A stretch of 64,000 nucleotides of DNA from Leifsonia sp. 1010 (GTDB lineage: Bacteria > Actinomycetota > Actinomycetes > Actinomycetales > Microbacteriaceae): positions 1,798,001 to 1,862,000 of the forward strand of contig NZ_JAVDSL010000001.1 in assembly GCF_031455295.1 (NCBI RefSeq), read 5' to 3'. The notes beneath the pieces were generated by a model. The model was not told where the DNA came from and did not search any database. It worked only from the letters and a program-made list of their open reading frames with translations. The position numbers and the translations under genes were made by a program. Of the stretch, positions 23,507 to 27,408 are shown one piece after another (the first letter of the stretch is position 1; the number at the start of each line of letters is the position of its first letter).

Positions 23507-25027
23507 ATGGCCGACTACGTCGTCGCCATCGATCAGGGCACGACCAGCACCCGGGCGATCATCTTCGACAAGTCCGGGTCGATCGTCTCGACCGGGCAGC
23601 TGGAGCACGAGCAGATCTTCCCGAAGGCCGGCTGGGTCGAGCACAACCCGATCGAGATCTGGAACAACACCCGCGAGGTCATCGGCCAGGCGCTCTCCAA
23701 GGCCGACCTGACCCGCCACGACATCGCGGCGGTCGGCATCACCAACCAGCGCGAGACCGCGGTGGTCTGGGACAAGAACACCGGCGAGCCGGTCTACAAC
23801 GCCATCGTCTGGCAGGACACCCGCACACAGCCGATCGTCGACCGCCTGGCGGCCGACGGCGGCACCGAGCGCTTCAAGCAGATCGTCGGCCTTCCGCTGG
23901 CGACCTACTTCTCGGGCACGAAGATCGTGTGGATCCTGGAGAACGTCGAGGGCGCCCGCGAGCGCGCCGAGGCGGGAGACCTGCTGTTCGGCACGACCGA
24001 CACCTGGGTGCTCTGGAACCTCACGGGCGGCCCGGACGGCGGTGTCCACGCCACCGACGTGACCAACGCCTCCCGCACGCTGTTCATGGACCTCGAGACG
24101 CTGACCTGGCGTGACGACATCCTCGAGGTGTTCGGCGTTCCGAAGTCGATGCTCCCCGCGATCAAGAGCTCGTCCGAGGTCTACGGTCAGGTCGAGGCGT
24201 CCAGCCTCCTCCGCGAGGTGCCGGTCGCGGGCATCCTCGGCGACCAGCAGGCCGCGACGTTCGGCCAGGCCGCGTTCGACACCGGCGAGTCCAAGAACAC
24301 GTACGGCACCGGCAACTTCCTCATCTTCAACACCGGTGAGGAGATCGTCCACTCGAAGAACGGTCTGCTGACGACCCTCGGCTACAAGCTCGGTGACGCG
24401 GCGCCGCACTACGCGCTGGAGGGCTCGATCGCGGTCACCGGCTCGCTGGTGCAGTGGCTGCGCGACAACCTCGGGATCATCTCGAGCGCTCCGGAGATCG
24501 AGGAGCTCGCCAAGACGGTCGACGACAACGGCGGTGCGTACTTCGTGCCGGCGTTCTCTGGCCTGTTCGCGCCGTACTGGCGTGCGGATGCGCGCGGTGC
24601 GCTCGTCGGCCTCACGCGCTACGTGAACAAGGGCCACATCGCCCGTGCGGTGCTGGAGGCCACGGCCTTCCAGACCCGCGAGGTGCTGGATGCCGTCAAC
24701 GCGGACTCCGGCGTCGACCTCACGGAGCTCAAGGTCGACGGCGGCATGATCGCCAACAACCTGCTCATGCAGTTCCAGGCCGACATCCTCGGCGTCCCCG
24801 TGGTCCGTCCGGTCGTCGCTGAGACGACCGCCCTCGGTGCCGCGTACGCTGCGGGCCTCGCGGTCGGGTTCTGGTCGGACCTCGACGACCTGCGCAAGAA
24901 CTGGCAGGAGGACAGCCGCTGGACGCCGAACATGGAGCCGGAGGAGCGCGAGCGTCAGCTCCGTCTCTGGAAGAAGGCCGTCACGAAGACCTTCGACTGG
25001 GTCGACGACGACGTGCGCAACGCCTGA
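23507..25027 (+). CDS. glpK: Glycerol kinase
   Basis: A 506-residue FGGY kinase that phosphorylates glycerol with ATP. It begins [18 protein letters not shown], and shows [16 protein letters not shown], the ATP-site [11 protein letters not shown] and the C-terminal [21 protein letters not shown] signature. AAAGGAG lies 7 nt before the ATG. With glpF and glpD it makes the complete uptake and oxidation route from glycerol to dihydroxyacetone phosphate. A terminator hairpin follows. Confidence 0.97.
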
Positions 25028-25042
25028 GCCCGTCCCTCACCA

Positions 25043-25078
25043 CGAAGCGCCGTCCGGCATCCGCCGGGCGGCGCTTCG
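25043..25078 (+). terminator. Intrinsic terminator after glpK
   Basis: A 16-bp stem (25043-25058 with 25063-25078, one G:T pair) and ATCC loop is followed by GGCGTTTT. It ends the glp operon. Confidence 0.9.
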
Positions 25079-25115
25079 GCGTTTTGAACTCTGGTCTGGT
25101 GTCACATCCGATCAC

Positions 25116-25121
25116 TAACGT
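25116..25121 (+). promoter_or_regulatory. -10 box of the RelA/SpoT-S1 gene, leaderless type
   Basis: TAACGT lies 7 nt before the ATG at 25129. There is no Shine-Dalgarno worth the name, so the mRNA probably begins at the start codon. Confidence 0.55.
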
Positions 25122-25128
25122 TGGAAGC

Positions 25129-26067
25129 ATGCCACATCAGCTCACTCATCAGCTCGTCGAGAACCTCTACGCGGCCCGTCATCGCCAATGGAACAGCGCG
25201 AGGACTAGCGTCGAGAACTTCCTGAGCGATCTGTGCCACGAGCTGCTCGAAGGCGAGGACCCGTACAGGTTGAAAGTCACGGGGAGGATCAAGGACGCGC
25301 AGCGAGCCTTTGAGAAGGCGCAACGCAAGCTGCCGTCGGGCATGGAACTCGCGAGCATGGACGACGTCACCGACGTCGTCAAGGACATCGTCGGAGTGAA
25401 ACTGCTGTGCAAGACGTTGCGCGATTCGGACCTGGCAGTCGAAGCGATTACGGCGAGGTGTACCGCGCCGGGAAGTGTCATCCGATTTCACAATCCCGAC
25501 GAGAACGAGGACTACGTCGCGACACCGAAGCCGAGTGGGTACCGCGCACGCCACCTTCTTCTCGAGCTGGATGTCGCCGGCCGGGACTCGCGGATCGTAG
25601 TCGTGGAGGTGCAGGTCAAGACGATGCTGCAGGACGCGTGGGGCGAGCTGACGCACGAAGACCTGTACAAGTCCGGACCGCTCGTCCCGTCGTCCCATCA
25701 CGGTGACCTGGCCCGCACCATGGCCGGGCTCCTGTGGGAGGTCGACCAGCTGGCCGACATCATCGCCCGCCAGACCGACAGCCGCATGCAGCCGACCCTG
25801 GAAGAGACACAGCCGGGTGCGACTGCCGACGCTAACGACCGGATCGTAGAGGTCACCCACACCGGCGCTCGATACGCGCTCGCCACGGACGATCAGGGCC
25901 GTCGCGGGCTCATCCCCGCGGTCGTGATCAGGGATCTTGTGGCGCCTAGAAGACACATCAATGTCGACGACTACGTCTCCGTCGGCCAGAGATTGACCGT
26001 TCAAGCCGTCGATACCGGTGACGGCTACTACTTCCACCCGCTCAAGCCGGACGAGCTCAGCTCATGA
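25129..26067 (+). CDS. RelA/SpoT synthetase-domain protein fused to an S1-like OB domain
   Basis: A 312-residue protein. Residues 40-185 match the (p)ppGpp synthetase fold: GRIKDAQRAFEKA (Arg53, Lys55), VGVKLLCKTL, PKPSGYRARH (Tyr138, His142), EVQVKT (Glu160) and DAWGELTHEDLYK. These residues suggest an active pyrophosphate transfer domain. No HD hydrolase domain is present. Residues ~236-305 (VEVTHTGARYALA, GRRGLIPAVVI, DDYVSVGQRLTVQAVDTG) look like an S1/OB nucleic-acid-binding domain instead of the TGS-ACT tail of full Rel enzymes. The gene is alone, between the glp terminator and a convergent HAD gene, and its codon use is less GC-biased than its neighbours, which hints at transfer. Whether it is an alarmone synthetase or a toxic SAS with self-neutralising domain is open. 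Confidence 0.75.
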   Translation: MPHQLTHQLVENLYAARHRQWNSARTSVENFLSDLCHELLEGEDPYRLKVTGRIKDAQRAFEKAQRKLPSGMELASMDDVTDVVKDIVGVKLLCKTLRDSDLAVEAITARCTAPGSVIRFHNPDENEDYVATPKPSGYRARHLLLELDVAGRDSRIVVVEVQVKTMLQDAWGELTHEDLYKSGPLVPSSHHGDLARTMAGLLWEVDQLADIIARQTDSRMQPTLEETQPGATADANDRIVEVTHTGARYALATDDQGRRGLIPAVVIRDLVAPRRHINVDDYVSVGQRLTVQAVDTGDGYYFHPLKPDELSS

Positions 26068-26086
26068 GTGCGTCGCACCGCGGCGT

Positions 26087-26818
26087 TCAGGCCAGGAGAG
26101 GAACGAGCTCGGCGAGGGAGGCGATGGTGCGAACGCCGGCGGTGGCCGCGTCGAGTTCGTCTTCGGGGGACGGCACGGCGTTGCGACGGTTGAGCCAGAC
26201 GCCGGTGAGACCGGCTCGTGCGCTGGCGATCGCATCCGTGCGGAGCCGGTCGCCGACATACGCGGCCTGATCCGCGCGAACGCCGAAGGCGCCGCACGCG
26301 GCGTGGAAGATCGCCGAGTCGGGCTTGGCCACGCCGACCTCGCCGGACGCGATCAGGTGCTCCATGCGAGCGTCGAGTCCGACCGCCTCCACCTTCCGGC
26401 CCTGGAAGGCCAGGTCGCCGTTGGTGATGAGGCCGAAGCGCACGCCGGGGAGGGCAGCCTGGAGGGCGTCCAGGGCCGGGAGGGCGTCGTCGTGCAGCGA
26501 CCAGGCGGCCACGTAGTGCTCGAAGTAGTCGGCGAACCAGGCGCTCGCCTGGGCGTCGTCCAGCTCGACCCCGTGCCGGGCCGCGAAGTCGCGGGCGCGC
26601 GCCTGCCGCTGACCCTCGAAGTCGAGGCGGCCGGCGAGGTACGAGTGGTAGTGCTCCTCCTCGAGGTCGTGCCAGAGCGTCACGACCTCGTCCGCTTCGG
26701 CGGTGCCGTAGGGCGGTCCGAGGCTCTCGGCATACCGCAGGATGCCGGCCTCGACGGCCGTCCGGTGCGCGAACAGGGTGTCGTCGAGGTCGAACAGGAC
26801 GACACGGATGTCGCTCAC
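26087..26818 (-). CDS. HAD-superfamily hydrolase (YjjG/2-haloacid dehalogenase-like)
   Basis: A 243-residue HAD phosphatase. Motif I is VVLFDLDDTLFAHR, motif II LITNGDL, the conserved lysine is in GVAKPD and motif III is YVGDRLRTD. The helical cap lies between motifs I and II. The start is the GTG at 26818, overlapping the stop of the GNAT gene (GTGA), which matches the family N-terminus. Its substrate is likely a small phosphorylated metabolite or nucleotide; this is not determinable here. Confidence 0.88.
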   Translation of the reverse strand: MSDIRVVLFDLDDTLFAHRTAVEAGILRYAESLGPPYGTAEADEVVTLWHDLEEEHYHSYLAGRLDFEGQRQARARDFAARHGVELDDAQASAWFADYFEHYVAAWSLHDDALPALDALQAALPGVRFGLITNGDLAFQGRKVEAVGLDARMEHLIASGEVGVAKPDSAIFHAACGAFGVRADQAAYVGDRLRTDAIASARAGLTGVWLNRRNAVPSPEDELDAATAGVRTIASLAELVPLLA

Positions 26819-27408
26819 GCCGGAACCTGCACGAACGAGACATCGGGCCAGTCGCCCGCAGGGCGCCCTGCGTCCTGCGGCAGGAGGGTGCCACGCCACT
26901 CGTCGAACCGCTCGCCCCGCTGTTCGGCGCCGCCGGGCACGATGCCGTCCCACCGGAAGCCGGCTCGTCGGGCGACGGCGGCGCTGGCGGCGTTCCCGGC
27001 GAGAGCGCGCCACACCAGCTTGCGCAGCGCCAAGCCGTTCGGAGCCGGGGCGAAACCGTAGTCGACGACCAGAGCGGTGGCCTCGGACATGATGCCCTTC
27101 CCGCGGGCCTCCGGCGCCATCCAGTAGCCGATCTCGCCCTGGTGCTCGCGGATATCGCCGATGCTGATCATGCCGAGCAGCACGTCATCGACACGGACCG
27201 CCCACGTGCAGACCCGGCCGCTCGCCCAGCCGTCGGGAACCACGCTCGTCACGAATCCCACGGCGTTCTCACGCGTGTACGGCGACGGCACGGTCGTCCA
27301 GCGAGCGATCGCCGGGTCGGCGCAGACGTCGGCGATCCGGTCGACATCCGCGTGCCCGGGCGTCGACAGCGTCACCCGCGCGCCCGTCAGGACGACCGGC
27401 GCCGGCAT
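26815..27408 (-). CDS. GNAT-family N-acetyltransferase (RimJ/RimL-like)
   Basis: A 197-residue acetyltransferase: VVLTGARVTLSTPGHADVDRI opening, GEIGYWMAPEARGKGIMSEA as the acetyl-CoA binding motif A, and LRKLVWRALAGNAASAAVARRAGF as motif B. RimJ/RimL relatives acetylate ribosomal protein N-termini or small molecules. Its start shares a base with the trpS stop (TGATG) and its end overlaps the HAD gene, so the three are co-transcribed. Confidence 0.88.
   Translation of the reverse strand: MPAPVVLTGARVTLSTPGHADVDRIADVCADPAIARWTTVPSPYTRENAVGFVTSVVPDGWASGRVCTWAVRVDDVLLGMISIGDIREHQGEIGYWMAPEARGKGIMSEATALVVDYGFAPAPNGLALRKLVWRALAGNAASAAVARRAGFRWDGIVPGGAEQRGERFDEWRGTLLPQDAGRPAGDWPDVSFVQVPA

Follow-up and report, generated by a model that had tools for sequence, protein, structure and literature searches.

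A RelA_SpoT-domain protein with a conserved S1-like C-terminal domain in a variable gene spot of Leifsonia sp. 1010

A stretch of 64,000 nucleotides of the Leifsonia sp. 1010 genome (the window) contains a lone gene whose N-terminal part was recognised, from the letters alone, as a (p)ppGpp-synthetase-type domain and whose C-terminus was taken for an S1/OB fold. The locus raises the question of whether the product is a small alarmone synthetase (SAS) that senses RNA, or a toxSAS-like defence factor that is held off by its own tail. The control of SASs is mostly ascribed to transcription or nucleotides, and if this tail is conserved subfamily-wide, it would couple alarmone synthesis directly to the state of RNA or ribosomes, independently of the Rel-ribosome pathway.

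Domain layout and active site of the synthetase

The gene was confirmed as a sequence feature (Table 1), and its start codon agrees with that of a 60%-identical relative found in another genome of the genus (G007). The Pfam scan of the 312-aa protein gave RelA_SpoT (PF04607) as the sole match, with 55.8 bits over residues 52–182 against a gathering cut-off of 27, and the HD, TGS and ACT domains were absent. The HMM search suggested by the sequence-only reading therefore bore out its view of a RelA_SpoT synthetase that has none of these domains, and the protein has the composition of an SAS, namely RelA_SpoT in the absence of an HD hydrolase. The same genome (G000, 3.88 Mb) also encodes a 756-aa Rel and an ordinary SAS of the actRel type, which makes the window gene its third RelA_SpoT gene. 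The conserved helical segment that follows the synthetase domain sits where RelP and RelQ have their C-terminal helices and, by analogy with these proteins (PMC11782079), residues 187–217 may have a role in oligomerisation.

Table 1. Position of the synthetase gene, its parts and the neighbouring features in the window
Feature	Position	Strand	Basis
Putative S1-tailed small alarmone synthetase, whole gene, 312 aa	25129..26067	+	ORF and Pfam
RelA_SpoT synthetase domain, residues 52–182	25282..25674	+	Pfam, RelP/RelQ chains, invariance
Conserved helical segment, residues 187–217	25687..25779	+	53% mean identity in clade A
Variable linker, residues 218–237	25780..25839	+	13% mean identity
S1-like C-terminal domain, residues 238–306	25840..26046	+	Profile comparisons, tail-HMM search, Foldseek
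glpK, bounds the variable gene spot on the left	23507..25027	+	
HAD-like gene, convergent, bounds the variable gene spot on the right	26087..26884	-	
15-bp inverted repeat (hairpin) after glpK	25044..25077	+	Read from sequence
TAACGT, -10-like hexamer	25116..25121	+	Read from sequence; 7 nt before ATG

The synthetase domain contains R53, K55, K63, D86, a G-loop of P133-K134-x-S136-G137-Y138-R139, H142, E160, Q162, H176 and Y180. The five residues from which the enzyme type had been read (Arg53, Lys55, Tyr138, His142 and Glu160) were indeed present and were found invariant in all 30 clade-A members of the protein family. When the ATP and Mg ligands named for SaRelP (PMC5794853) were traced in the alignment, R78, K80, K88, D107, E174 and H190 corresponded to R53, K55, K63, D86, E160 and H176 of the window protein, and the G-loop Tyr (Y151) and the RelP-type Pro (P146) to Y138 and P133; each of these is invariant in 30/30 clade-A members. 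Thus, the ATP, Mg and G-loop residues of RelP and RelQ are kept, but the counterpart of R112 is a Lys. This residue 91 (window 25399–25401) is Lys in all 30 clade-A members; at this place RelP (R112), RelQ, actRel and CapRel carry an Arg, the second of those that stack on adenine. The presence of P133 suggests an ordered, RelP-like G-loop, as can be inferred from the RelQ H111P result (PMC5794853). On the acceptor side K134, R139 and H142 are retained, and so is the H-xxx-YK segment of RelP and RelQ, which CapRel does not have. The nearest PDB chains to the window protein were YwaC/RelP and YjbM/RelQ, and the clade-A profile matched RelP at 4.5e-22, RelQ at 1e-17 and CapRel at 5e-8, with FaRel2 reaching E 0.09 only. 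RelP and RelQ differ from the window protein in having no S1-like tail. Together, these features suggest that the window protein is probably an enzymatically active small alarmone synthetase. Its N-terminal domain would take pyrophosphate from ATP and attach it to the 3'-OH of an acceptor nucleotide, with GDP or GTP as the likeliest candidates, and the resident Rel could remove the product provided that it has retained the usual hydrolase half.

In clade B (e.g. L064:1483–2397), the His that contacts the ATP ribose in RelP is replaced with Glu in 20 of the 20 members and the next Tyr with Phe, and the activity of this clade is possibly altered or lost. The possibility that the synthetase domain is catalytically dead or altered and serves as a nucleotide sensor could draw on this Glu and on Lys91 in place of the adenine-stacking Arg throughout clade A, but the Mg ligands, the catalytic Glu and the G-loop Tyr are invariant in clade A, and we consider this possibility improbable. 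An acceptor other than a nucleotide was also weighed, as FaRel2, CapRel, PhRel and PhRel2 of the same superfamily pyrophosphorylate tRNA-CCA (PMC11559606). An enzyme of this kind would pyrophosphorylate an RNA 3' end, and an S1-like tail would suit it by presenting the RNA substrate. However, the active-site segment and the acceptor-side basic residues are RelP/RelQ-like and not CapRel-like, and such a toxin is unlikely to be kept on the chromosome without an antitoxin, which makes an RNA-modifying activity improbable.

The S1-like tail and its possible partners

The C-terminal tail was compared by hhalign with the S1 domains of ribosomal protein S1 and PNPase from the same genome, and scores of 30–33 (probability 80–87) were obtained, whereas the maximum score in 300 column shuffles was 17.2. 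A tail-only HMM was run over 297 genomes of the order; beyond the family it matched in 33 genomes (E 8e-5 to 1e-3), at model positions 24–74 and nearly always in ORFs of 740–890 aa, and all five of the proteins checked among these matches were PNPase. No protein outside the family in these 297 genomes carries the tail strongly. The earlier claim of an S1-like C-terminus has thus held. Residues from about 255 to 297 can be aligned with the S1 domain of PNPase from actinobacteria, and the alignment takes in both the insert that follows strand three and the subsequent V-x-D-x-V-x-VGQ; PNPase differs in having RNase PH and KH domains, and the window tail lacks the His that is canonical for S1 as well as the basic residues at the C-terminus. 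The clade-B tails alone scored only 10 against S1 and reached a probability of 97 against the clade-A tails, and the S1 link of clade B is therefore indirect.

The proposed search with S1 models succeeded in part, as the similarity was found by profile-profile and tail-HMM comparison and the Pfam S1 model itself was not reached. The isolated tail gave nothing above the Pfam cut-offs, with S1 and SH3-like families as weak matches; Pfam S1 was matched by 1 of 24 tails (E 0.12) and SH3_9 by 5 of 24 (best 0.038). An NCBIfam match to 'pppGpp_PNP' (E 0.043) was rejected as a sign of alarmone chemistry, as it represents the S1 of PNPase only, and the partial matches that the tail profile made to calmodulin and MglB were judged to be chance. 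The structure prediction was likewise of mixed value. AlphaFold modelled the full-length protein from one sequence at pLDDT 36 and the tail at a low-confidence pLDDT of 52; with the latter model, the strand order fits a five-stranded OB barrel, and the first folds listed by Foldseek were the OB/S1 folds of eIF2-alpha, ribosomal S1, PNPase, exosome and cold-shock proteins, a list that by itself carries little weight as support for S1. Judged by the profile comparisons, the tail is an S1-like domain resembling the RNA-contacting S1 of PNPase, and RNA sensing by it is possible.

The conservation of the tail was determined in 12 diverse clade-A members, where the mean identity was 48.6% for the synthetase domain, 53.0% for the following helix, 13.0% for the linker and 49.3% for the tail. 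Conservation of the tail equals that of the enzyme, and the tail is therefore under a similar constraint. Caution on RNA binding is needed because the tail is net acidic (9 K/R and 12 D/E) and the usual S1 His is lost, its position being taken by Pro263. In addition, S1 domains that bind RNA have aromatic positions which are only partly kept in the tail, and the conserved tail aromatics are few (Y249, Y301 and F302). The tail carries GLIPA, and domains 1 and 2 of the ribosomal protein S1 of the same genome carry GVIPS and GFLPA, respectively; the GLxHxS of ribosomal S1 domains 3–4 and PNPase is not found in the window tail. The S1 domains 1–2 of ribosomal protein S1 are thought to act in ribosome docking through protein-protein contacts. 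The S1-like tail of the SAS may accordingly be a module for protein-protein contact or oligomerisation and not an RNA binder. The acidic charge, the GLIPA resemblance and the few conserved aromatics all speak for such a module, but the closest sequence kin of the tail are the PNPase S1 domains, which contact RNA, and we hold it to be a credible though doubtful explanation.

The explanation that we prefer, at a probability of about one half, is a small alarmone synthetase from a separate subfamily, in which the conserved S1-like domain sets the place and time of synthesis through RNA or through an RNA-bound or ribosomal partner. The PNPase-type S1/OB-like domain, carried on a flexible linker, would govern where and when the enzyme works by contacting one of these. 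A precedent for control by RNA is RelQ, which is catalytically passive when bound to RNA (PMC5794853). This explanation is favoured because the RelA_SpoT match lies over the cut-off, the active site is kept, the tail is S1-like, the tail and enzyme are equally conserved, and the loci examined in the genus g91 (see below) are chromosomal and syntenic. It is weakened by Lys91 in place of R112, the acidic tail, Pro263, the weak Pfam S1 matches and the low confidence of the AlphaFold models.

Phylogeny and distribution of the family

In the tree of synthetase domains, clades A and B clustered together (93/86); actRel and RelQ shared a different branch (98/85), and CapRel-SJ46 was far removed, with the finer branching order limited by long branches. 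The proposed phylogeny against toxSAS families covered CapRel-SJ46, the sole toxSAS in the tree. RelQ thus groups with actRel and not with the window family, and clades A and B do not belong to actRel. The actRel of the same genome (G000:C1:494923), which represents the common actinobacterial SAS, shares the RelA_SpoT domain and about 30% identity over residues 50–216, but it has no S1 tail, falls into a separate supported clade and occurs in 28/28 genomes of the genus as against 2 for the window gene. A nucleic-acid-related domain on an actinobacterial SAS is known from RelZ of Mycobacterium smegmatis, a dual-domain RNase HII-synthetase; its partner domain (DUF429/RNase HII) is N-terminal, unlike the C-terminal S1 of the window protein. 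The 2011 survey recognised 12 SAS subgroups and noted actRel with DUF429 as the only multidomain case (PMC3153485), and the synthetase-S1 architecture is not described among them. No report of an alarmone synthetase joined to an S1 domain was found in the open-licence literature.

Whole-genome profile searches recovered close to 90 relatives of full length, all of them actinobacterial. Within the genus, the gene occurs in 2 of 28 genomes (those of the window and G007), and an ordinary synthetase match was obtained in all 28. The 299 genomes of the taxonomic family gave no relative beyond these two at E 1e-30; at the level of the order, a full-length relative was found in 29 of 396 genomes including that of the window, the class-wide search added G1300, and the phylum-wide sample yielded no further relatives. 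The pattern scans of genome contigs found no relatives and those of viral contigs only two distant synthetase-only loci. The tblastn searches of plasmids and phages gave synthetase-domain matches only, none covering 80%, and near-identical plasmid DNA was confined to glpK. The family apparently represents a patchily spread, distinct and undescribed actinobacterial SAS subfamily, as judged from these searches.

The distribution differed in one genus (g91), where 38 of 57 genomes hold both A and B at separate loci (e.g. L088 and L070 in G427), four have one divergent copy only and 15 have none; a canonical A or B alone was found in none of the 57. In the g91 copies examined, A mostly adjoins a Pyr_redox_2 gene and B an xthA-like nuclease gene, the gene order is conserved, and the loci are chromosomal and syntenic. 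The ordinary chromosomal distribution, which the sequence-only reading had named as speaking against its proposal, was thus seen in part, in these 38 genomes, while the family is sporadic and rare outside g91. The pairing may be a clade effect or reflect a functional pair, and its strictness in one genus raises the question of a two-component synthetase. In such a two-gene system, clade A would read the RNA or ribosome state and clade B, having lost the His, would be a regulatory partner, with stray A copies spreading via exchangeable spots and perhaps acting as RNA-triggered growth brakes or in defence; we regard this scheme as speculative and rather unlikely.

Genomic setting and the question of defence

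The window gene is a lone unit, as had been noticed from the letters; it follows the glpK hairpin, is convergent with the HAD-like gene and has no co-directional partner. The hairpin, which also occurs in the sister genome G021, was unflagged in the terminator scan; it is a probable terminator that parts glpK from the synthetase gene. The suggestion of a leaderless mRNA was supported by the -10-like TAACGT and by the lack of a Shine-Dalgarno sequence at normal distance before the ATG, and in the G007 relative TATAGC precedes the ATG by 9 nt. A leaderless mRNA is plausible, and it remains inferential because no promoter emerged from the sigma-70 consensus scan. The Rfam search gave no match. 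The milder codon bias was evident from a GC3 of 0.805, compared with 0.88–0.95 in the six neighbours measured and 0.942 in the G007 copy.

In this genus, the interval between glpK and HAD is a spot of gene exchange. In nine genomes the two genes are directly adjacent with a gap under about 150 bp, many others have an LCP gene between them, and some hold further genes. The contents of the interval (window 25028–26086 and L197, L198, L201 and L204) include genes for an LCP protein, a GH106 rhamnosidase-like protein, DUF2306 and unknown products in different species. Between the window and G007, the identity is 60% for the synthetase, 76% for HAD and 95% for glpK; this contrast, together with the GC3 values of the two copies, fits with gene exchange at the spot and amelioration in G007, repeated loss being a possible alternative.

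The toxSAS proposal was examined with reference to CapRel-SJ46, a fused toxSAS (PDC-S33) that shares with the window protein a synthetase and a C-terminal domain on one chain and the G-loop Tyr. The tail of CapRel-SJ46 is, however, a variable pseudo-zinc-finger with a YXXY motif and its C-terminal sensor is the least conserved part of the protein (PMC9712102), whereas the window tail is S1-like and, being as conserved as the synthetase, does not behave as a hypervariable sensor; YXXY is absent from the whole 312-aa protein. With PADLOC, the window protein matched PDC-S33 at 51.6 bits over residues 44–171, that is, in the synthetase only and without the pseudo-zinc-finger, as compared with 71 for the actRel of the same genome and 290 for CapRel-SJ46 at full length. 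The match was rejected as defence evidence because the actRel control scored higher. No antitoxin-like partner was found in the window, and none recurs among the relatives examined. In locus L086:8282–14456 (G569), a clade-A synthetase gene shares 4 bp with a NUDIX gene, after which come a PLD-helicase resembling type IV restriction enzymes and an ATPase with DUF4143 (PDC-S01); this locus lies in a defence island, and a defence context therefore exists at least once. A toxic pyrophosphokinase silenced by its own tail and freed by a phage trigger would agree with that island, with the integrase or recombinase genes beside other relatives, with the rarity of the gene in the genus and its exchangeable spot, and with its atypical GC3. 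The distance from CapRel in the tree, the PADLOC score below that of actRel, the absence of YXXY, the conserved tail, the lack of a recurring partner and the presence of syntenic copies on the chromosome of most g91 genomes argue against such an effector, which we consider unlikely. The window protein is probably not a phage-defence toxin by these comparisons, and the self-inhibited defence factor of the sequence-only reading was not upheld.

The nearest relative genome, G021, in which HAD is about 94% identical, carries at the exact site of the window gene (L208:1156–2286) an unrelated gene of ~255 aa without Pfam or PADLOC match, whose product combines a membrane-like segment at its N-terminus with a GPTHLGDGDLVNNG stretch.
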